This document shows, in pieces, positions 1 to 7,623 of a stretch of 7,623 nt of DNA (the stretch's first letter is position 1; the number at the start of each line of letters is the position of its first letter). The position numbers and the translations under genes are program-made. This DNA is from Flavobacteriaceae bacterium (GTDB lineage Bacteria; Bacteroidota; Bacteroidia; Flavobacteriales; Flavobacteriaceae), in contig JAESUF010000206.1 of the NCBI GenBank assembly GCA_016763215.1, forward strand, positions 1-7,623, written 5' to 3'. Under the pieces are notes generated by a model. That model did not search any database. It was not told the origin of the DNA and saw only the letters and a list, made by a program, of their open reading frames with translations.

Positions 1-665
1 CAAGAGGAGGAGACGTGCCTAATTTACTACAAGTTGCTACAGATATTCAAGAGTTTGGTGCCGAAGGAATAACCATTCATCCAAGACCAGACGAACGACA
101 TATTCGTTATCAAGACGCCTACGATTTAAAGCCTATTGTAATTACAGAATATAATATAGAAGGCAATCCAATTCGAAAATTTATGGATTTGGTATTAAAA
201 GTGAACCCTACACAGGTAACCTTAGTTCCGGATAGTGTAGACCAAATTACGTCTAATGCAGGTTGGGATACAATTACCCATCAATCGTATTTACAAGAAG
301 TGATTGCTGAATTTAAGAATGCAGGAATTCGCACTTCTATCTTCATTGATGCTGATTTAAAGTTGATTGAAGCTGCAGCGAAAACAGGAGCAGACAGAAT
401 AGAATTGTACACAGAACGTTTTGCCAGCGAATATGAAAAGGGAAATAAAGAAGCAGTAAAACCATATACTGAAGCAGCTATTTTAGCTCACGGTTTAGGA
501 TTGGGAATTAATGCAGGACATGATTTAAGTTTGGAGAATGTTGAATTTTTTAAACAAAATATTCCAAACCTAGCAGAAGTTTCTATAGGGCATGCATTGA
601 TTTCTGAAAGCTTGTATTTGGGGATGCAGAATGTAGTGAACATGTATTTACATCGATTAAGTTAA
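1..665 (+). CDS. pdxJ: Pyridoxine 5'-phosphate synthase PdxJ, 5' end cut by the window edge
   Basis: PdxJ condenses 1-deoxyxylulose 5-phosphate with 3-amino-2-oxopropyl phosphate to give pyridoxine 5'-phosphate, the ring-closing step of the DXP-dependent vitamin B6 pathway in the cytoplasm. The GTG at 15 is not the start: the frame is open to the left edge and reads RGGDVPNLLQVA, a typical internal PdxJ segment, so roughly 15-20 N-terminal residues lie outside the window. Family hallmarks seen are the active-site segment HPRPDERHIR, TEYNIEGNP, the strand with LVPD, the loop around GADRIELYTERFA, NAGHDLSLEN and the phosphate-binding end IGHALISESLYLG. About 220 residues are present of the usual ~237-240. 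It ends in TAA and shows no internal damage. The next gene is on the same strand after 93 bp, so co-transcription is possible. Identification is secure. Confidence 0.97.
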   Translation, partial: RGGDVPNLLQVATDIQEFGAEGITIHPRPDERHIRYQDAYDLKPIVITEYNIEGNPIRKFMDLVLKVNPTQVTLVPDSVDQITSNAGWDTITHQSYLQEVIAEFKNAGIRTSIFIDADLKLIEAAAKTGADRIELYTERFASEYEKGNKEAVKPYTEAAILAHGLGLGINAGHDLSLENVEFFKQNIPNLAEVSIGHALISESLYLGMQNVVNMYLHRLS

Positions 666-758
666 AGAATTAGCGAGTAGTTAGTTCCTAGTGATTCGTA
701 GCCGGTAAATATATTTTCGAAATTTGATAACTGATAACTGATAACTGATAACTGATTA
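666..758. repeat. Intergenic spacer ending in a (GATAACT)4 tandem heptamer
   Basis: The last third of this spacer is a perfect tandem repeat: GATAACT four times at 726-753 plus a partial GAT at 754-756, ending two bases before the ATG of the hydrolase gene. The part before it (about 668-700) is rich in TAG and AGT words and may be an older, decayed version of similar repeats; that is only an impression. No Shine-Dalgarno sequence can be seen between the repeat and the start codon. Related short TAACTGA-type repeats occur between genes in other Bacteroidota, as I recall, so this is probably a slipped-strand repeat rather than a protein site. Confidence 0.85.
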
Positions 759-1523
759 ATGGAAATACTACATTCAAAAATTGTAGGGCAAGGACAACCT
801 TTTCTAATTCTTCATGGCTATTTTGGAATGGGCGATAATTGGAAATCACTAGCCAATGAGTTTGGAGAACATTTTGAAATGCATTTGATAGATCAACGAA
901 ATCACGGACGTAGTTTTCACGCCGATGATTTTGATTATGATTTGTTAGCGGAGGATGTATACAATTATATCAATCACCATAATTTAGAGAAAATCATTTT
1001 ACTAGGGCATTCCATGGGAGGGAAAACGGCAATGTTGTTTGCTGTCGAATACCCAGAATTGGTTGATAAATTAATCATTGCAGATATTTCACCTAGATAT
1101 TATCAACCACATCATAATGAAATTTTGAAAGGATTGGGTTCTATCAATTTTTCTATTCAGAATACGAGAAGACTAGTGGATGAAAAACTAGCAGAATTAA
1201 TTCCGGAGATAGGAGTGCGTTCTTTCTTGTTAAGAAATGTGTATTGGAGGGAGAAAGGAGTGTTAGACTTTCGATTCAATTTACAATCACTCACAGAAAA
1301 CAATGCTGAAGTTGGAAACGCTTTGCCATCATTTACCAATTTTGAAGGAAAGGCACTGTTCTTAGCAGGAGGGAATTCAGGGTATATCACAGAAAGTGAA
1401 GTTCCCATTATCAAAGCTCATTTTCCAAAGGCTCAAATTGAAACCATTGCCAATGCTGGGCATTGGTTGCATGCAGACAATCCGAAAGCTTTTTATGAAA
1501 GTGTAATGGAGTTTTTGAATTAA
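759..1523 (+). CDS. Alpha/beta hydrolase, YbfF-like esterase family
   Basis: A 254-residue cytoplasmic alpha/beta-hydrolase fold protein without signal peptide. Visible landmarks in order are LILHGYFGMGDNW (residues 17-28), which forms the oxyanion-hole loop, DQRNHGRS (45-52), the nucleophile elbow GHSMGGK with Ser85, an Asp at 109 in ADISPRYY, and the catalytic His235 in NAGHW. The combination RNHG, GHSMGGK and a DI-P strand end matches the E. coli YbfF group of esterases and acyl-CoA thioesterases; the physiological substrate is not predictable. I take Ser85 and His235 as certain triad members and Asp109 as the likely acid by comparison with YbfF. The ATG at 759 follows the heptamer repeat directly and lacks a visible Shine-Dalgarno sequence. 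Its stop codon overlaps that of the converging phhA. pdxJ lies upstream on the same strand, but a link to vitamin B6 metabolism is not shown. Confidence 0.9.
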   Translation: MEILHSKIVGQGQPFLILHGYFGMGDNWKSLANEFGEHFEMHLIDQRNHGRSFHADDFDYDLLAEDVYNYINHHNLEKIILLGHSMGGKTAMLFAVEYPELVDKLIIADISPRYYQPHHNEILKGLGSINFSIQNTRRLVDEKLAELIPEIGVRSFLLRNVYWREKGVLDFRFNLQSLTENNAEVGNALPSFTNFEGKALFLAGGNSGYITESEVPIIKAHFPKAQIETIANAGHWLHADNPKAFYESVMEFLN

Positions 1524-3261
1524 ATCAGGGCAATTCCTTCCAAAATTAAAGTTGTTAGTTTCGAGTTTTTAGAAGCAATTGTTTCTAAATAAGGAATAAT
1601 CTCATTTTTGAGATTTTGATCTTTTGTTAGCTCTAAAATTTCTAAAGGAAGCAACCATTCGTTTGAATAGTTAGCCCGAGCCTTTTCAAAAAGGTTTTTT
1701 AATTGAGATTCATCTTGAGGCTTACGTTCTCTAATTTTTCGAACGGTTTGATAATACGATTCTAATATGAGTGTAGTCTCCGATTTCTCAGGTTTTACTG
1801 TCAGTGTTTTAGAGACGTTGTATAAGTTAGGAAACGAATTATAATCGGCAGCTCCCGCAAAAGCAGAAACGATTTTTTTGCCAACCACCATGTCAAATAC
1901 TCCGTATTCTGGTTTGAATAAAACCTCACCTTTATAAGTAACTGTACATTCACCCAACTGAATCAACATCAATTTTCCTTTCAGGTTTCTAACTCCCGTA
2001 ATATTTAACCCTTTTACTTTGATGCCGCTTTCAAATTCAAAAGACAACCATTTTCCGTCATAAAAATTATAGGCTTTTAAATCTACCGGCCCCATGTCTT
2101 CAATTGCTAGATTGATGTTTTTTAGTTTTCCTAAAGGGGAACTGAATCCATCTTTATGCGTTTCAATTCCATGTCCAATAAGTTCTCTTTCTCTGTAAGC
2201 CAATGCTGTTGGTCCTTCAGTTTTGAAGAAGATAACTTCTCTATCTTCATTTAAGAGTACTTTAGAAAATTTTCCAGAAACTTGAAGTCCAGTACTCAAT
2301 TCAATGGTTCCAACCATTTGAGAATTGATTAGTTTTTGAACTCCTTTGCTACCCCCTTTTCGCAAACTTAATCGATTGGCAAACTCTTCCAATACTTGCA
2401 TAAGTAGGAGAAATCTGGACTTACATACAATTGAGGCTGTGGTTGGGTAATGTCAAAAGATTGCTCAATTGCATCAATAGAATATGGGCGTTTTTTTACC
2501 TGTTCACTCATGCACCATTTGCTTTCTCCAATAGAAGATAACAATCCTGCTCCATAGATTTTCGGATTTTCTAATTCTCCGATTAATCCGTATTCAACTG
2601 TCCACCATTGTAGGTTTCTAATTTGCGCCATTTCCGATAATTCAATATCCATCTGTTGCAATCTATCAACTTCCTGCTCAGCTTTTTTTAACTCATTTTC
2701 ATCTACAGCTTCTGCCTCCTTTAGAATGGATAGCTTCCGTACAGCTTCGTATAAATCGATGTCGTATTTCGATAAAATTGCTTTTGCTCCAACTTCACCT
2801 AGACGTCTTAAGTATTCGGCATAATCTGGGTTGGCTATAATGGGAGCATGACCAGCTGCTTCATGAATAATGTCTGGTGCGGGTGTGTATTGAATATTTT
2901 CTAATTGACGAATGTCTGAAGCAATGACTAATATTTTATAAGCTTGAAACTCCATAAAAGCATTCGGAGGAATAAAACCATCTACAGAAACCGCTGCCCA
3001 TCCAATCGATTACAAAATTCGATTCATGCCATACATACTCGAAATTTCATCAATTTTGATTCCCGTTTTTTCTAAACCATTCAGATAAGATTCGTGAGCA
3101 TTTTTAGAAAGGTACTCTACATTTTTACGCATTACATAACGCCAAACAGCTTGGTTTATTGGCGTGTATTCCTCGTAGTTTTGAGGCTTGATAAACTGCT
3201 TTAAATGTGGAGGTAACCTGTCGATTAACTCATTGCTTTCGAATCTTTGTGTGTGCGTCAT
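1520..3261 (-). pseudogene. phhA: Phenylalanine 4-hydroxylase, long Bacteroidota form, interrupted by a stop codon and a frameshift
   Basis: Tetrahydropterin- and Fe(II)-dependent conversion of phenylalanine to tyrosine. Three pieces together make one protein of about 580 residues. Piece 1 (3261-3013) starts MTHTQRFESN and ends at MYGMNRIL. An in-frame TAA (3012-3010) follows, after which the frame continues as SIGWAAVSVDGFIPPNAF into piece 2, whose first ATG is at 2955. Piece 2 carries the iron ligands His133 and His138 in DIIHEAAGH and Glu223 in WWTVEYGL. After FSYL (about 2402) the reading moves to another frame, MQVLEEFANRLSL, and runs to a stop at 1520; one missing base between 2401 and 2402 explains this. 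Restoring that base gives exactly 580 codons plus stop, the usual length of the family. The last ~290 residues are the C-terminal extension typical of the Bacteroidota enzymes, of unknown role. Either a recent pseudogene or two consensus errors. Confidence 0.9.
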
Positions 3262-3283
3262 TTATGATTTCTCGATAAAAAAT

Positions 3284-3291
3284 CAAAGGTA
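3284..3291 (-). promoter_or_regulatory. Candidate -7 element of the phhA promoter (TAnnTTTG)
   Basis: On the minus strand TACCTTTG matches the Bacteroidota -7 consensus TAnnTTTG exactly and lies 22 bases upstream of the phhA ATG. No convincing TTG-type -33 box was found at the usual distance, so this is a candidate only. No Shine-Dalgarno sequence is seen before the ATG, which is common in this phylum. Confidence 0.35.
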
Positions 3292-3362
3292 GCCAATGTA
3301 TCCAAATTATGATCTTTAATTCTTGTAATAAGCTCAACAGATGTATCGATTTAGTTATTTTC

Positions 3363-3386
3363 TAAACAGGTGTTTTTACCTGTTTA
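3363..3386. promoter_or_regulatory. Perfect 9+9 bp inverted repeat, possible operator between divergent genes
   Basis: TAAACAGGT at 3363-3371 is the exact reverse complement of ACCTGTTTA at 3378-3386, with six bases between. It sits in the 191-bp region between the divergent phhA and beta-hydroxylase genes, about 102 bp from the first start and 67 bp from the second. The right arm is not followed by a T-run, so it does not look like an intrinsic terminator. A two-fold symmetric site of this size and place fits a dimeric transcription factor. Which factor is unknown. Confidence 0.5.
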
Positions 3387-3420
3387 TTGACCAAAATGAG
3401 TCAATTTTAATAATGAATAT

Positions 3421-3428
3421 TATATTTG
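3421..3428 (+). promoter_or_regulatory. Candidate -7 element of the beta-hydroxylase gene (TAnnTTTG)
   Basis: TATATTTG matches the Bacteroidota -7 consensus exactly and lies 24 bases upstream of the ATG at 3453. The nearest TTG upstream (3387-3389) is too far away for a standard -33 box and touches the end of the inverted repeat at 3363-3386. If the element is used, the repeat would lie just upstream of the promoter. Confidence 0.4.
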
Positions 3429-3452
3429 AAAGGATCATAATATTTCTATGTG

Positions 3453-4142
3453 ATGAAAACCAGAAATGCTCTTAAGTTAAACTTTCAGTTTGATGCTCAA
3501 AGAATTCGTAAAGAATTAGAATCTATATCAGATTCTTTTTATCCAATTCTTTCCGCTCAGATAGAAGATGAAGCTTTAGAGGGAATGCATTTAATTGCCC
3601 CAGATAGAGAAGGGAAGGTGGATGAACGAGGACATACATTTCATATGAGCGAAGAGTTAAAGAAATGTCCGTATTTACAAGAAATTTTGGATACGTTTCA
3701 ATGTGATAAATTCCTGTATCGAACTCAAAACTTAAAGCCAGGTGGAAAAATAGAAATGCACAGAGACAGAGGAAGAGGTATAGTAGATGGAATTGTTAGA
3801 TTGAACATTCCTGTATCTACCAATGACCAAGTATACTTTTATATTGATGGAGAGAGAATTGCAATGAAAGATGGAGAATGTTGGCTGCCAGAAGTAACCA
3901 AATTGCATGAGGTTGAGAATAGGTCAGATGAACTTCGTATGCAGATTATGATTGACTGCGACTTAAATGACTGGTGGAAAGATGTTTTAAAAGAACATGG
4001 AATGATCAAAGAGCCAGCTAAATATGGACGATATAGTTTACGCGAGCTTCAAGCGATGAAAGATAGTTTTGTATCTATGAAAATGGATCGTAAAATGATA
4101 GAAGAACTGGAGTTTGAAATAGTAGCAAGAGCAGAAGTCTAA
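3453..4142 (+). CDS. Aspartyl/asparaginyl beta-hydroxylase family Fe(II)/2-oxoglutarate dioxygenase
   Basis: A 229-residue soluble protein. The central part has the layout of the aspartyl/asparaginyl beta-hydroxylase family (double-stranded beta-helix dioxygenases): LKPGGKIEMHRDRG with iron ligands His103 and Asp105, then RLNIPVSTNDQVYF, the turn KDGECWLPE, and KLHEVENRSDELRMQIMIDC with the distal ligand His152 and Arg162, the likely 2-oxoglutarate carboxylate contact. Such enzymes hydroxylate Asp/Asn or His residues in proteins or free amino-acid derivatives; the substrate here cannot be told. The last ~50 residues, after NDWWKDVL, are a charged helical tail. I chose ATG 3453. A GTG directly before it (3450) would add one residue, and the ATG at 3448 runs into TGA. 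No clear Shine-Dalgarno sequence. It is divergent from phhA and stands alone, 11 bp from the converging small gene. Confidence 0.9.
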   Translation: MKTRNALKLNFQFDAQRIRKELESISDSFYPILSAQIEDEALEGMHLIAPDREGKVDERGHTFHMSEELKKCPYLQEILDTFQCDKFLYRTQNLKPGGKIEMHRDRGRGIVDGIVRLNIPVSTNDQVYFYIDGERIAMKDGECWLPEVTKLHEVENRSDELRMQIMIDCDLNDWWKDVLKEHGMIKEPAKYGRYSLRELQAMKDSFVSMKMDRKMIEELEFEIVARAEV

Positions 4143-4153
4143 ATCTTAAAAAA

Positions 4154-4356
4154 TTATTCGTTACCAGAAAATCGATGATTCAAGTGTTCAATGAATTTTT
4201 CGACATTAAAATTGATGTCACCTTCTCCAACTTGATCAAAAGGATTTTCTAAATATTTTCGAATATTAGATGTATAATTAGCATCAGAAATTTGTTGTGA
4301 GTAAACGCTCAAGTATGAAGTAGAAATAATGATAAAAAAAGAAGACTAATATTCAT
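4154..4356 (-). pseudogene. Small exported protein with a one-base frameshift in an A/T run
   Basis: I do not recognise this family. From ATG at 4356-4354 the minus strand reads MNISLLFLSLF and meets TGA after 15 codons. Adding one base in the run of seven A (plus strand 4334-4340) gives a clean 67-residue frame: a signal peptide MNISLLFFIIISTSYLSVYS, then QQISDANYTS, ending in EHLNHRFSGNE and TAA at 4156-4154. The repaired length is exactly 68 codons including stop. The hydrophobic N-terminus followed by S-QQ is what a signal peptidase site looks like, so export is likely. The ribosome binding site is good (AGAGGA, 8 bases before the ATG). The gene lies beyond the mscL terminator and must have its own promoter. 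It is either a real frameshift or a homopolymer error. Confidence 0.6.
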
Positions 4357-4365
4357 TTATTGTTT

Positions 4366-4377
4366 CCTCTATAGAGG
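4366..4377. repeat. 12-bp perfect palindrome overlapping the ribosome binding site of the small exported gene
   Basis: CCTCTATAGAGG is fully self-complementary. On the minus strand its right half supplies AGAGG of the Shine-Dalgarno sequence 8-9 bases before the start at 4356. It could be a binding site or fold weakly in the mRNA; at 12 bp, chance is also possible. Confidence 0.4.
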
Positions 4378-4418
4378 TCGTGTAGCACTTTTGAAGTTAC
4401 TGTAAATTGCAGAAATAA

Positions 4419-4446
4419 AAAATCCCAAACGAGCGTTTGGGATTTT
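4419..4446 (-). terminator. Strong intrinsic terminator after mscL, possibly bidirectional
   Basis: Arms AAAATCCCAAACG (4419-4431) and CGTTTGGGATTTT (4434-4446) are perfectly complementary over 13 bp with a two-base centre, which in RNA opens to a four-base loop. On the minus strand the hairpin is followed by a T-rich tract and begins 23 bp after the mscL stop, so it ends the tdk-alr-mscL unit. On the plus strand it is also followed by T-rich sequence and could stop transcripts from the beta-hydroxylase gene. Confidence 0.92.
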
Positions 4447-4469
4447 ATTTTATATAAGATTTTGGATAT

Positions 4470-4883
4470 TTATTTCTTAGATAGTAAATCTCTAATTTCA
4501 GCTAATAGCTCTTCTTGCGTAGGTCCAGCTGGTGCAGGAGGTGGCGCGGGAGCTTCTTTCTTCTTGGATGCATTAATTCCTTTGATCATCATAAACATAA
4601 CAAAAGCGACAATAATAAAATCAATGATGTTGGTGATGAATGCACCATAGAGTATAGCTATTTCACCTGTTACTTTTCCGGCGGCATCAACGACTCCTTC
4701 CTCAGCAATCCATTTTAAATTTTTAAGATCGGTTTTAAATATCAATCCAATTAGTGGTGACACAATTCCCCCAGTAAATGAAGTCACTACTTGTTTAAAT
4801 GCAGCACCCATTACAAAACCGACAGCGATGTCGACTAGGTTGCCTTTCATTGCGAATTCCTTGAATTCTTTAAGCATTCCCAT
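4470..4883 (-). CDS. mscL: Large-conductance mechanosensitive channel MscL
   Basis: Homopentameric inner-membrane channel that opens under membrane tension and releases solutes on sudden drop of osmolarity. 137 residues, matching the usual length. An amphipathic N-terminal helix MLKEFKEFAMKGN leads into TM1 (about 15-47) with the gate motif NLVDIAVGFVMGAAF; the periplasmic loop (about 50-75) follows, then TM2 (about 77-100, ILYGAFITNIIDFIIVAF), a KKK cluster at 107-109, an Ala/Pro linker and a C-terminal helix TQEELLAEIRDLLSKK that forms the cytoplasmic bundle. ATG at 4883 is used; a second ATG two codons on gives MLKEF and cannot be excluded. No clear Shine-Dalgarno sequence. It is the last gene of a probable operon, 48 bp after alr, closed by the hairpin at 4419-4446. 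Confidence 0.98.
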   Translation of the reverse strand: MGMLKEFKEFAMKGNLVDIAVGFVMGAAFKQVVTSFTGGIVSPLIGLIFKTDLKNLKWIAEEGVVDAAGKVTGEIAILYGAFITNIIDFIIVAFVMFMMIKGINASKKKEAPAPPPAPAGPTQEELLAEIRDLLSKK

Positions 4884-4931
4884 ATTTGATTCGTTTTTAG
4901 TTAGTTAATAAGTGTCCAAATTAAGAAAACT

Positions 4932-6032
4932 TTAACACTTTAGCAATCTTTTTACACGTTGCGAAATAGCAGTAAGCACTTCGTAAGGAATTGTTTCTGT
5001 CTCAGAAGCCATGTGAAGAATATCTTCCTGAGTTTTGAAGATGAAAACCTCATCTCCTTCTTTACAATCTATCTCAGTAATGTCTACCATAATCATATCC
5101 ATACATACGTTCCCGATGATTGGAGCTTTCTTTTCATTGATAGTAACATAGCCTTTTTTGTTGCCCAATCTTCTTGAAATCCCATCTGCATGACCTACGG
5201 GGATGGTTGCAGTTTTAGTAGAGTTTTTAGTGACAAAAGCTCTATTATATCCAACTGTTTCTCCAGGTTCTATCTTGTGAATCTGAGAAATGATCGATTT
5301 TAAAATATGAGCATTTTTCAACTGAGAAGTTTCCTTTTTATGATTTCCAAAACCATACAATCCAATTCCAATTCTTACCATGTCAAACTGGGCTTGAGGG
5401 TAATTAACAACCCCAGAAGTGTTTAATGTATGAATCATGGGTGTATACTCCAAATGCTTGTTGATCTGTTGTACAATAGCGGCGAAATTAGTTAATTGAC
5501 CAATAGTGAAATCGTGTTCTTCTGGGTCTTCACTGGCCGCTAAATGCGAAAGAATAGATTGAATTTTTACGTGCTTAGACTCATTGATGCGACTTAAAAT
5601 TAAAGGAATGTCTTTGTCGCATAGTCCTAAACGATTCAGACCCGTATTAAACTTTAAGTGTATTGGGTAATTGAGTAATTGGCGTTTGTCTGCAAGCGAT
5701 AAAAATGCAGTTAGTGTTTTGAGATTGTAAATACTTGGTTCAAGACGAAACTCTACTAGCTGTTCGAAATTTTGAACTTGCGGGTGCAACACCAAAATTG
5801 GAGCCTCAATATTGGCTTCTCGTAAAGCAATTCCCTCATGAACATAGGCTACAGCAAAATAATCTACTTTGTCTTGTAAGAAAGTAGCCACTTGCACACC
5901 ATCGCTTCCATAGCCAAATGCTTTTACAACAGCCAAGATTTTTGTTTCAGGTTGTAGTTTTTGTTTGAAATAATTGAGGTTATGCTCAATGGCATTTCCG
6001 TCAATTTCTAAAACAGTTACATGGTTATTCAT
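4932..6032 (-). CDS. alr: Alanine racemase
   Basis: PLP-dependent interconversion of L- and D-alanine, supplying D-Ala for peptidoglycan in the cytoplasm. 366 residues, the usual size. The N-terminal TIM barrel carries the PLP lysine Lys37 in VVKAFGYGSDG, the strand LKFNTGLNRLG (127-137), SHLAASED, NTSGVVNYP and VRIGIGLYGFG with Arg220, which contacts the PLP ring nitrogen in the family. The C-terminal beta-domain has the second catalytic base Tyr262 in ETVGYNRAF, IPVGHADGISRRL, GNVCMDMIMVD and the conserved end IPYEVLTAISQRVKRL. In many Bacteroidota Alr is fused behind a MurF-like domain; this one stands alone. The start at 6032 is supported by AGGA 9-12 bases upstream, which lies inside an inverted repeat. 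tdk precedes it by 36 bp on the same strand and mscL follows by 48 bp. Confidence 0.97.
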   Translation of the reverse strand: MNNHVTVLEIDGNAIEHNLNYFKQKLQPETKILAVVKAFGYGSDGVQVATFLQDKVDYFAVAYVHEGIALREANIEAPILVLHPQVQNFEQLVEFRLEPSIYNLKTLTAFLSLADKRQLLNYPIHLKFNTGLNRLGLCDKDIPLILSRINESKHVKIQSILSHLAASEDPEEHDFTIGQLTNFAAIVQQINKHLEYTPMIHTLNTSGVVNYPQAQFDMVRIGIGLYGFGNHKKETSQLKNAHILKSIISQIHKIEPGETVGYNRAFVTKNSTKTATIPVGHADGISRRLGNKKGYVTINEKKAPIIGNVCMDMIMVDITEIDCKEGDEVFIFKTQEDILHMASETETIPYEVLTAISQRVKRLLKC

Positions 6033-6041
6033 TTTTCTTTA

Positions 6042-6064
6042 TCCTGAATTAACTTATTTCAGGA
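6042..6064 (-). promoter_or_regulatory. Inverted repeat that pairs the alr ribosome binding site
   Basis: TCCTGAA (6042-6048) and TTCAGGA (6058-6064) are perfectly complementary over 7 bp around a nine-base loop, in the 36-bp gap between tdk and alr. On the mRNA the 3' arm contains the AGGA just before the alr start, so the hairpin could lower alr translation. There is no T-run, so it is not a terminator. The word TTCAGGA occurs again at 6078-6084 inside the end of tdk. Confidence 0.4.
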
Positions 6065-6068
6065 CGGA

Positions 6069-6689
6069 TTATTTTGGTTCAGGATTTTTTTCTTTCAGAA
6101 TTTGCTCTTGTTGTTCTTTTATAGCCTTATAATATGCGGCTCTGCTTAACGGTTCGTATTCTTGAACTTCTCCTAAAAAGACAATGTCATCACTTTTTGC
6201 TTTTCTAAAGCTATAATTGGCTAAGTTTCCAGTTCTAGTACAAACTGCATGTACCTTTGTTACATATTCAGCGGTGGCCATTAAAGCAGGCATAGGACCA
6301 AAAGGATTTCCTTTAAAATCCATGTCCAATCCAGCAACAATAACGCGAATTCCTCTATTTGCTAGATCGTTGCAAACAGCAACAATTTCAACATCAAAAA
6401 ACTGAGCTTCGTCAATACCAACAACTTCTACATCATTTGCAAGTAGCCGAATATTTGAGGAAGATGGAACAGGCGTAGAACGTATTTCATTCGAATCGTG
6501 CGAAACAACCATCTCATTATCATATCGAGTATCAACAGCTGGTTTAAAAATTTCAACACGCTGTTTTGCAAATTGTGCTCGTTTAAGCCTTCTGATTAGC
6601 TCTTCTGTTTTTCCTGAAAACATGGAGCCGCAAATTACTTCGATCCAGCCAAATTGTTCTGTATGATTTACGGTATTTTCAAGAAACAT
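6069..6689 (-). CDS. tdk: Thymidine kinase (type II, TK1-like)
   Basis: Phosphorylates thymidine (and deoxyuridine) with ATP for dTMP salvage in the cytoplasm. 206 residues. The P-loop is GSMFSGKT (21-28), the Asp/Glu strand [11 protein letters not shown] holds the catalytic base Glu94, and [12 protein letters not shown] (120-131) and [18 protein letters not shown] (143-160) belong to the family lasso region. Type II enzymes normally bind zinc with four Cys/His side chains; here only Cys150 remains, with Thr153, Ser182 and Ala185 at the other places (HAVCTRTGN and [10 protein letters not shown]). As I recall this loss is shared by Bacteroidota relatives, so the protein is probably active. A charged C-terminal tail follows ([12 protein letters not shown]). 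It is the first gene of the likely tdk-alr-mscL unit and is divergent from the gene at 6791. Confidence 0.97.
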
Positions 6690-6741
6690 TTTGTAGTTTT
6701 AAGGCTTGAAAGGATTTGTATTTATTCACTGTGAATGTAGG

Positions 6742-6749
6742 CAAATTTA
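6742..6749 (-). promoter_or_regulatory. Candidate -7 element of the tdk-alr-mscL promoter (TAnnTTTG)
   Basis: On the minus strand TAAATTTG matches the Bacteroidota -7 consensus exactly and lies 52 bases upstream of the tdk ATG. No clear -33 TTG is found at the usual spacing. An inverted repeat, ATTCAC-T-GTGAAT at 6724-6736, lies just downstream, in the predicted leader, and could be an operator. Confidence 0.4.
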
Positions 6750-6776
6750 TTAAAAAATGATTTCATAAAATTAATT

Positions 6777-6783
6777 AAAGGAG
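6777..6783 (+). promoter_or_regulatory. Strong Shine-Dalgarno sequence fixing the start at 6791
   Basis: AAAGGAG lies seven bases before ATG 6791. It is notably better than the ribosome sites of most other genes in the window and makes this start certain. Confidence 0.8.
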
Positions 6784-6790
6784 ACAACTT

Positions 6791-7231
6791 ATGCACAAAA
6801 AACTCACCGCAGATCTTATTAGTTTAGCTCATAGTATCTTGCAGATGAAAAATAAAGAGGATGTTTTTGCTTTAAAGCAGAAATCGCACGAAGTATATGA
6901 AAAGTTATCTGTTTTAGCCTATGTGGAAGAGTATATAAATAACACACCTAATCCAGAGCATACAAAAGAGGAGTTTCTTGATAAAATTGAAAACATAGAA
7001 AAAGAGAGAGAAGCTCAGAAAAAAGTTAAGGAAGCACAAGCAGAAGATAAGATTGTTAAACACAATTTAGAAGAAGTTATTGTAGATGTTATAATAGAAG
7101 AACAGGTTGTTGAAGAAGTAGCAACAGAAATTGAGCTAGTTGTTGAAGAGACTACTGAAGAGATTGCTGACCAAGGACCCCACAAAAAGGATCGAGTGGA
7201 TGGATTTGCTGAGGATAAATATTGGCAATGA
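6791..7231 (+). CDS. Conserved flavobacterial hypothetical protein, N-terminal part only, with a foreign end
   Basis: The N-terminus (MHKKLTADLISLAHSILQMKN, then VYEKLSVLAYVEEY) matches what I recall of a conserved hypothetical protein of Flavobacteriia with no known function. That protein has an N-terminal helical segment of about 55 residues, a long Glu/Val/Lys-rich low-complexity middle and a conserved C-terminal domain. Here the helical head (1-60), a charged helix rich in EKEREAQKK and the acidic middle (about 95-125, EEVIVDVIIEEQVVEE) are present, but the C-terminal domain is missing. The last ~20 residues, after EETTEEI (about 7165), come from reading unrelated downstream DNA in the wrong frame, and the TGA at 7229-7231 is accidental. 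The genuine flavobacterial part therefore ends at about 7150-7168. It is a soluble protein with no signal peptide, divergent from tdk. Confidence 0.7.
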   Translation: MHKKLTADLISLAHSILQMKNKEDVFALKQKSHEVYEKLSVLAYVEEYINNTPNPEHTKEEFLDKIENIEKEREAQKKVKEAQAEDKIVKHNLEEVIVDVIIEEQVVEEVATEIELVVEETTEEIADQGPHKKDRVDGFAEDKYWQ

Positions 7232-7623
7232 TGGTAAGCTGGTTGCAAACAGACAGGAGCGGCTGTCTCTGGTGGAGGAGGAAGGGGGAGTGGGTCTGGA
7301 GTCAGCCAAATTGATGGAATCAACTAAACTCACTGACTCAACCAAGGGATACGGAGGTGACTCCATGAAGAAGCCAAGTGATACTGCCAGCAGCAATCAA
7401 AGCTACTCACCCCCCAGTGCCTAGTAAAGATCGAGATAATTCAGCCACTCAGAGCAAAATCTCAATCCTCCTCAGGTAGCTGGGCAGGGGCAAGGCGCCT
7501 CTTTCCTCAAGAAAAAGAATACCTATGAGGCCCCAACCAATTCCTTTGGACAGGCCAATCCCAGAAGGAACTCAGCTCAGATGGGCCAGGACGCCAATGA
7601 ATATGAGCAGTGGGGCAACAACA
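7152..7623 (+). CDS. C-terminal fragment of a ciliate protein kinase, read with TAA and TAG as Gln
   Basis: In the frame of CTA 7152-7154 the DNA reads LLKRLLTKDPTKRIEWMDLL, the end of a eukaryotic Ser/Thr kinase domain (subdomain XI, with the conserved Arg of KDPxKRI). A hydrophilic tail of about 135 residues follows, rich in Ser, Gln, Asn, Gly and Pro. In the standard code it stops at TAG 7422-7424. If TAG (7422) and TAA (7425 and 7437) are glutamine, the frame stays open to the window edge; there is no TGA in it. This is the nuclear code of Oxytricha/Stylonychia, Tetrahymena and Paramecium; the high G+C and CTG-rich codon use fit a hypotrich better than the very AT-rich oligohymenophoreans, which is an inference. 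Both ends are incomplete: the catalytic part is missing at the join and the right end is cut by the window. It is not a bacterial gene. Confidence 0.8.

Follow-up and report, generated by a model that had tools for sequence, protein, structure and literature searches.

The contig JAESUF010000206.1 of assembly GCA_016763215.1 (Flavobacteriaceae bacterium), taken here at its full length of 7,623 nt (positions 1-7,623, forward strand) and referred to as the window, ends in the reading frame of a eukaryotic protein kinase that is interrupted by three stop triplets. This raises the question of whether the stops are sense codons of a variant genetic code, the true end of the kinase or part of an intron, and of how such a gene came to lie on a flavobacterial contig.

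The kinase frame and its surroundings

The frame 7152-7622 encodes LLKRLLTKDPTKRIEWMDLL, followed by a Ser/Asn/Gln-rich tail. It holds exactly three stops (TAG at 7422-7424, TAA at 7425-7427 and TAA at 7437-7439), contains no TGA and is open afterwards. Translation thereby bore out much of a first-pass annotation of this DNA, which had described kinase subdomain XI with a Gln/Ser/Asn tail from 7152 to the last base, quoting its motif and coordinates correctly, and had reported TAG, TAA and TAA at 7422, 7425 and 7437 in a frame that then stays open without an in-frame TGA. Residue comparison sets the beginning of homology to the closest kinase relatives slightly before 7152, at the Leu codon 7143. 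The three stops all lie within 6 codons, a spacing that three codons drawn at random from 157 would show with a chance of 0.0024, and they sit within a GT..AG stretch or at its edge. The same annotation had noted a rise in G+C to half or more in the kinase part, and this was confirmed, with values of 0.32 for 6791-7142, 0.50 (0.504) for 7164-7423 and 0.525 for 7445-7623; the GT..AG stretch at 7424-7444 has 0.33 (0.333). The features of this end of the window are as follows.

6069 to 6689, minus strand: thymidine kinase gene (tk), PF00265, at most 89% identical to Flavobacteriaceae loci
6791 to 7142, plus strand: native part of a truncated Flavobacteriaceae gene for a hypothetical protein, adjoining tk on the opposite strand; C-terminal half missing
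7143 to 7166, no strand: probable chimera junction zone, with kinase homology back to 7143 and bacterial composition forward to about 7146-7166
7143 to 7423, plus strand: predicted exon with the end of the kinase domain (subdomain XI) and the start of the Ser/Asn/Gln-rich tail, 87-91% identical to P0002-P0004
7424 to 7444, plus strand: predicted 21-base GT-AG intron, phase 2, dividing a Tyr codon as TA|C; top-scoring among 1440 in-frame deletions, G+C 0.33
7445 to 7623, plus strand: predicted next exon, kinase tail running off the contig end, aligned to P0005, P0006, P0009, P0013 and P0014

When the code 6 reading was searched against 5.8 billion proteins, 13 of 29 candidates matched at E<=10. 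The part before the stops has metagenomic relatives at 87-91% identity (P0002-P0004). Three of the 13 cross the stop site (P0005, P0006 and P0009), P0013 and P0014 cover only the sequence after it, and P0010, P0011 and P0012 end earlier. The remaining five, P0002, P0003, P0004, P0007 and P0008, whose identity is as low as 59%, terminate precisely at YSPPS[A/T/S]. By homology, the stretch after the stops is coding, because translated by itself it aligns to five metagenomic relatives (P0005, P0006, P0009, P0013 and P0014) at 53-71% identity; this upholds the earlier suggestion that one protein carries on past the stops. A sixth relative, P0135, matches that translation weakly (31% identity, E 0.10), and the E-values of these post-stop alignments hold for a 14-protein set. 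All of the site-crossing relatives share a start Met (MELLR), which suggests that another intron or a stop lies just upstream in their genes.

These alignments bear directly on whether the kinase truly ends at 7422, with the remainder being 3' UTR or another gene. The termination of five relatives at this position, as their ORFs are called, is what such an ending would give. However, P0005, P0006 and P0009 read on in one ORF, a contradiction unless they are chimeras, and five relatives align past the site in the same frame, so that we give this reading almost no credence.

The family of the kinase was approached through its longer relatives. P0002 matches Pkinase (PF00069, E 6.4e-42) and P0008 is named ULK/ATG1 by JGI. 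Against solved structures, P0135 matched ULK3 first (E 1.4e-35), with SGK1 next (9e-32) and CDPK2 and ULK1 close, among the best 60 of 548 matches. ULK/ATG1 kinases carry a C-terminal MIT-type helical domain. The model of P0009 has helices at 119-146, 150-174 and 178-199, in a region that resembles MIT domains among other bundles, although the model is of low confidence (mean pLDDT 58 over its whole length) and the MIT match is within the chance range. Our best guess is an ULK/ATG1-like kinase, with which the best structure match of P0135, the JGI name of P0008 and the C-terminal helices of P0009 are in keeping. In contrast, the window holds only subdomain XI and a partial tail, its own kinase piece reaches only E 1.3 against ULK3, and other kinases score nearly as well. 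The 157-residue reading found no match in a Pfam and PDB sequence search. A long composite query for full-length kinases drew 4023 candidates, of which 2, P0009 and P0135, reached E<=1e-10; both lack an organism name. A named ciliate was sought among the kinase relatives and none was present, all 14 being without an organism name, and queries with P0008, P0009, P0135 and P0002 found no kinase relatives in viral contigs.

A predicted 21-base intron at the stops

The segment 7424-7444, GTAAAGATCGAGATAATTCAG, is 21 bases long with GT and AG ends. Without splicing, the code 6 reading of the window is YSPPSA-QQRSRQFSH-SEQNLN at this site, where the crossing relatives have YSPPSA-YQ-SEQNFN (P0006), YSPPSA-YQ-SEPNLQ (P0009) and YSPPSV-H-SEPNLN (P0005), and the seven extra residues of the window are absent from all three. 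Cutting out 7424-7444 keeps the frame, removes all three stops and gives YSPPSA-YH-SEQNLN, with a Tyr codon split TA|C. The scores against the relatives change from 308 to 315 (P0005), from 318 to 338 (P0006) and from 276 to 296 (P0009) between the unspliced code 6 reading and the spliced one. The predicted intron is AT-richer than its flanking exons. The spliced reading is open beyond chance, since only 11 of 5000 column-by-column codon-position shuffles of it were stop-free.

We scored 1440 in-frame deletions of 12-63 bases, starting at 7390-7469, against P0005, P0006 and P0009, reading each with code 6 so that stops were unpenalised. The deletion of 7424-7444 had the top score, 949, and the runner-up, at 935, retains two TAR codons as Gln. 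The top 14 deletions are all 21 or 24 bases long and lie in nearly the same place (near 7420-7449). GT..AG ends occur in 4 of the 1440 deletions and in 1 of the 80 of length 21, which puts the probability that the top deletion would bear them very roughly at 0.3 to 1%, a figure to be read in the light of trials that overlap and are not independent. Among 21 GT-AG pairs examined, 4 leave the frame open. The alternative introns 7417-7452, 7417-7479 and 7417-7494 were rejected, as each deletes residues kept in the relatives; with scores of 858 and 808 the first two fall short of 949, and the third, at 78 bases, is beyond the range of the deletion test.

On this comparative evidence, the three stops are most likely part of a tiny spliceosomal intron, which accounts for them without recourse to code 6. 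The spliceosome would excise 7424-7444, TA and C would join into a Tyr codon and the mRNA would be read onward; were the intron retained, its stops would halt translation at once. The shared end residue of the five shorter relatives can be explained in the same way, because an unspliced phase-2 Tyr codon reads TA+GT, that is TAG. We infer that the ORFs of P0002, P0003, P0004, P0007 and P0008 end at an intron. Against the intron stands the absence of the Tyr from P0005.

Genetic code and the origin of the kinase DNA

The first-pass annotation had taken the stops for Gln codons of ciliate code 6, with a relative that runs across them and has Gln at these places as its test. If code 6, or another code in which UAA and UAG mean Gln, were in use, the triplets would encode Gln within a 7-residue coding insertion and there would be no intron. 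The window does resemble code 6 ciliate genes in having a frame that is open when TAA and TAG are read as Gln, and variant codes are common among ciliates (PMC11687900). In a MAFFT alignment with the window unspliced, Gln of P0006 and P0009 stands opposite the TAA at 7425, where P0005 has a gap; the spliced reading pairs this Gln with His of the window. This is the only one of the three sites at which a crossing relative has Gln. At 7422 the relatives have His (P0005) and Tyr (P0006 and P0009), at 7437 all three have a gap, and none has the extra residues. Unlike in code 6 ciliate genes, TAA and TAG are confined in the kinase frame to the 21-base stretch and its edge, and the Gln codons left after splicing are 10 CAA/CAG and 0 TAA/TAG, a small sample. 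Moreover, the top-scoring deletion bears GT..AG ends, and five relatives stop at that very residue. The deletion test, the alignment of the relatives and the Gln codon count led us to reject code 6 by itself, which we regard as improbable, the Gln opposite 7425 in two relatives leaving it some probability. What stands of the earlier reading is that a flavobacterial contig carries the tail of a eukaryotic kinase, continuous past the stops, whereas the code assignment is not supported, the state of the relatives at 7422 and 7437 and the predicted 21-base GT..AG intron both speaking against it.

A tiny intron might also occur together with UAA and UAG as sense codons in one organism, whose code would then be unreadable from this fragment. 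In Loxodes, UAA and UAG mean Gln. Tiny introns are paired there with UGA as the sole stop codon (PMC11441545), and the Gln codons seen in the kinase fragment number only 10. However, the chance of finding no TAR among 10 Gln codons is 0.028 at a TAR share of 0.3, though it is 0.35 at a share of 0.1, so that a variant code with few TAR is compatible with the count, and in such a code a multiple-of-three intron with UAR and without UGA would be stopless. This combination is unlikely, if less so than code 6 without an intron.

Introns of this size have precedents. Nyctotherus introns are 21-29 nt long and tend toward in-frame stops or lengths not divisible by three, the standard code being argued for this genus, and Paramecium introns are given as 20-33 (all PMC2633312). 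Stentor has introns of 15-16 nt and the standard code (PMC9505925), and the marine Chaenea vorax has introns mostly of 16 nt (16-17), a G+C of 40% and all three standard stops in use (PMC13096750). In Loxodes the mean length is 19.3 and multiples of three are depleted (PMC11441545). Phyllopharyngeans include both standard and variant codes, with G+C from 27.4 to 53.6% (PMC11687900). Intron sizes across several ciliate classes are covered in PMC6920121, and ciliate G+C and median intron lengths in PMC10946202. In most of the ciliates of one study, short introns of multiple-of-three length were under-represented over the majority of length ranges, and they more often held in-frame stops; the study also cautions that short Tetrahymena introns falling in alignment gaps could stem from faulty annotation (PMC5014332). 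This scarcity, the depletion in Loxodes and the caution count against the predicted intron. The predicted intron of the window matches the tiny introns of ciliates in length range, GT-AG ends and a composition AT-richer than the exons, and it too is a multiple of three with in-frame stops. In contrast, aerobic ciliates average roughly 34% G+C (PMC10946202), against about 51% in the exons of the window. We also considered as sources of tiny introns the mikrocytids (16-17 nt) and the chlorarachniophyte nucleomorphs (18-21 nt; both PMC10245619). A ciliate origin is plausible by the tiny intron size alone, and not by the genetic code. Tentatively, and with rather more doubt than confidence, the DNA may represent a protist lineage without a reference genome, with introns of ~21 bases, G+C-balanced exons, possibly the standard code and kin in several metagenomes.

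By-eye reading of one gene can thus mistake a tiny multiple-of-three intron that holds in-frame stops for stop-codon reassignment, and tiny GT-AG introns should be tested first when an alternative code is called on a short contig.

The join and the bacterial part

Bases 1-7142 are, by homology and gene order, Flavobacteriaceae DNA, and the tk neighbourhood is conserved in the family. The tk gene is up to 89% identical to loci of Polaribacter and other Flavobacteriaceae. In 80 fetched tk loci, some of them short, alr was found in 66, mscL in 65 and a homologue of the gene at 6791 in 62 (E<=1e-5), and the order of mscL, alr, tk and the truncated gene in the window is that of the relatives. A looser threshold raises the homologues of the gene at 6791 to 67 of the 80 loci, with ORFs of 223-491 aa (median 286); a crudely defined C-terminal motif is present in 53 of these 67, and in the window copy that half is missing beyond the junction. 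The protein has 509 homologues at E<=0.001, and many of the best 120 of these are 240-256 aa long.

At the junction, homology to the kinases begins with the Leu codon 7143 (LKRLLKRLLTKDP in P0002-P0004). The trinucleotide change-point is best placed at 7166, with most of 7146-7172 within 3 nats and near-ties at parts of 7221-7252. The EETTEE motif of the junction stretch was found in none of the best 120 of the 509 homologues, similar strings occurring only in P0102 and P0121. Given that bacterial composition and kinase homology overlap by ~20 bases, the join may pass via a short stretch that is similar by chance.

Together these data suggest that the contig is very probably a misjoin of Flavobacteriaceae and protist DNA, the latter a kinase fragment with a predicted 21-base GT-AG intron for which the standard code suffices. 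Bases 1 to about 7143-7166 would come from a Flavobacteriaceae bacterium, probably marine, and the remainder would be an internal piece of an ULK/ATG1-like kinase gene from the genome of a protist, probably a ciliate, the two having been joined in assembly or amplification, perhaps via the short similar stretch at about 7143-7163. The sequence is contiguous as given, as it would be after a real insertion by lateral transfer, of bacterial DNA into a protist genome or the reverse. However, both genes are broken mid-protein at the same place, which makes a misjoin far likelier than transfer, and the arrangement of mscL, alr, tk and the truncated gene is unchanged from that in the relatives; we consider transfer very improbable. 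As in chimeric contigs of metagenome or amplified assemblies, two compositions and two gene sets meet inside two truncated genes, recognised here from the nucleotide sequence. The probable bacterial-protist chimera is flagged here, as it would otherwise stay in databases as a single contig.

Farther from the join, the gene order past mscL differs from that of the relatives, since the genes of region 1-4142 are nearly all missing from the 80 tk loci: within up to 8 kb of flank, pdxJ, the hydroxylase and the Asp/Asn hydroxylase-like gene were found in none, and the esterase-like gene in 2. The aromatic amino acid hydroxylase gene (NF010657; 1520-3261, minus strand) is broken into ORFs at 3010-3261, 2368-2955 and 1520-2401 that match successive parts of the profile, and these frame breaks would reflect a pseudogene or sequencing indels. 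One member of the truncated bacterial family, P0056, comes from a eukaryote transcriptome set (eukprot), where it is probably bacterial contamination.
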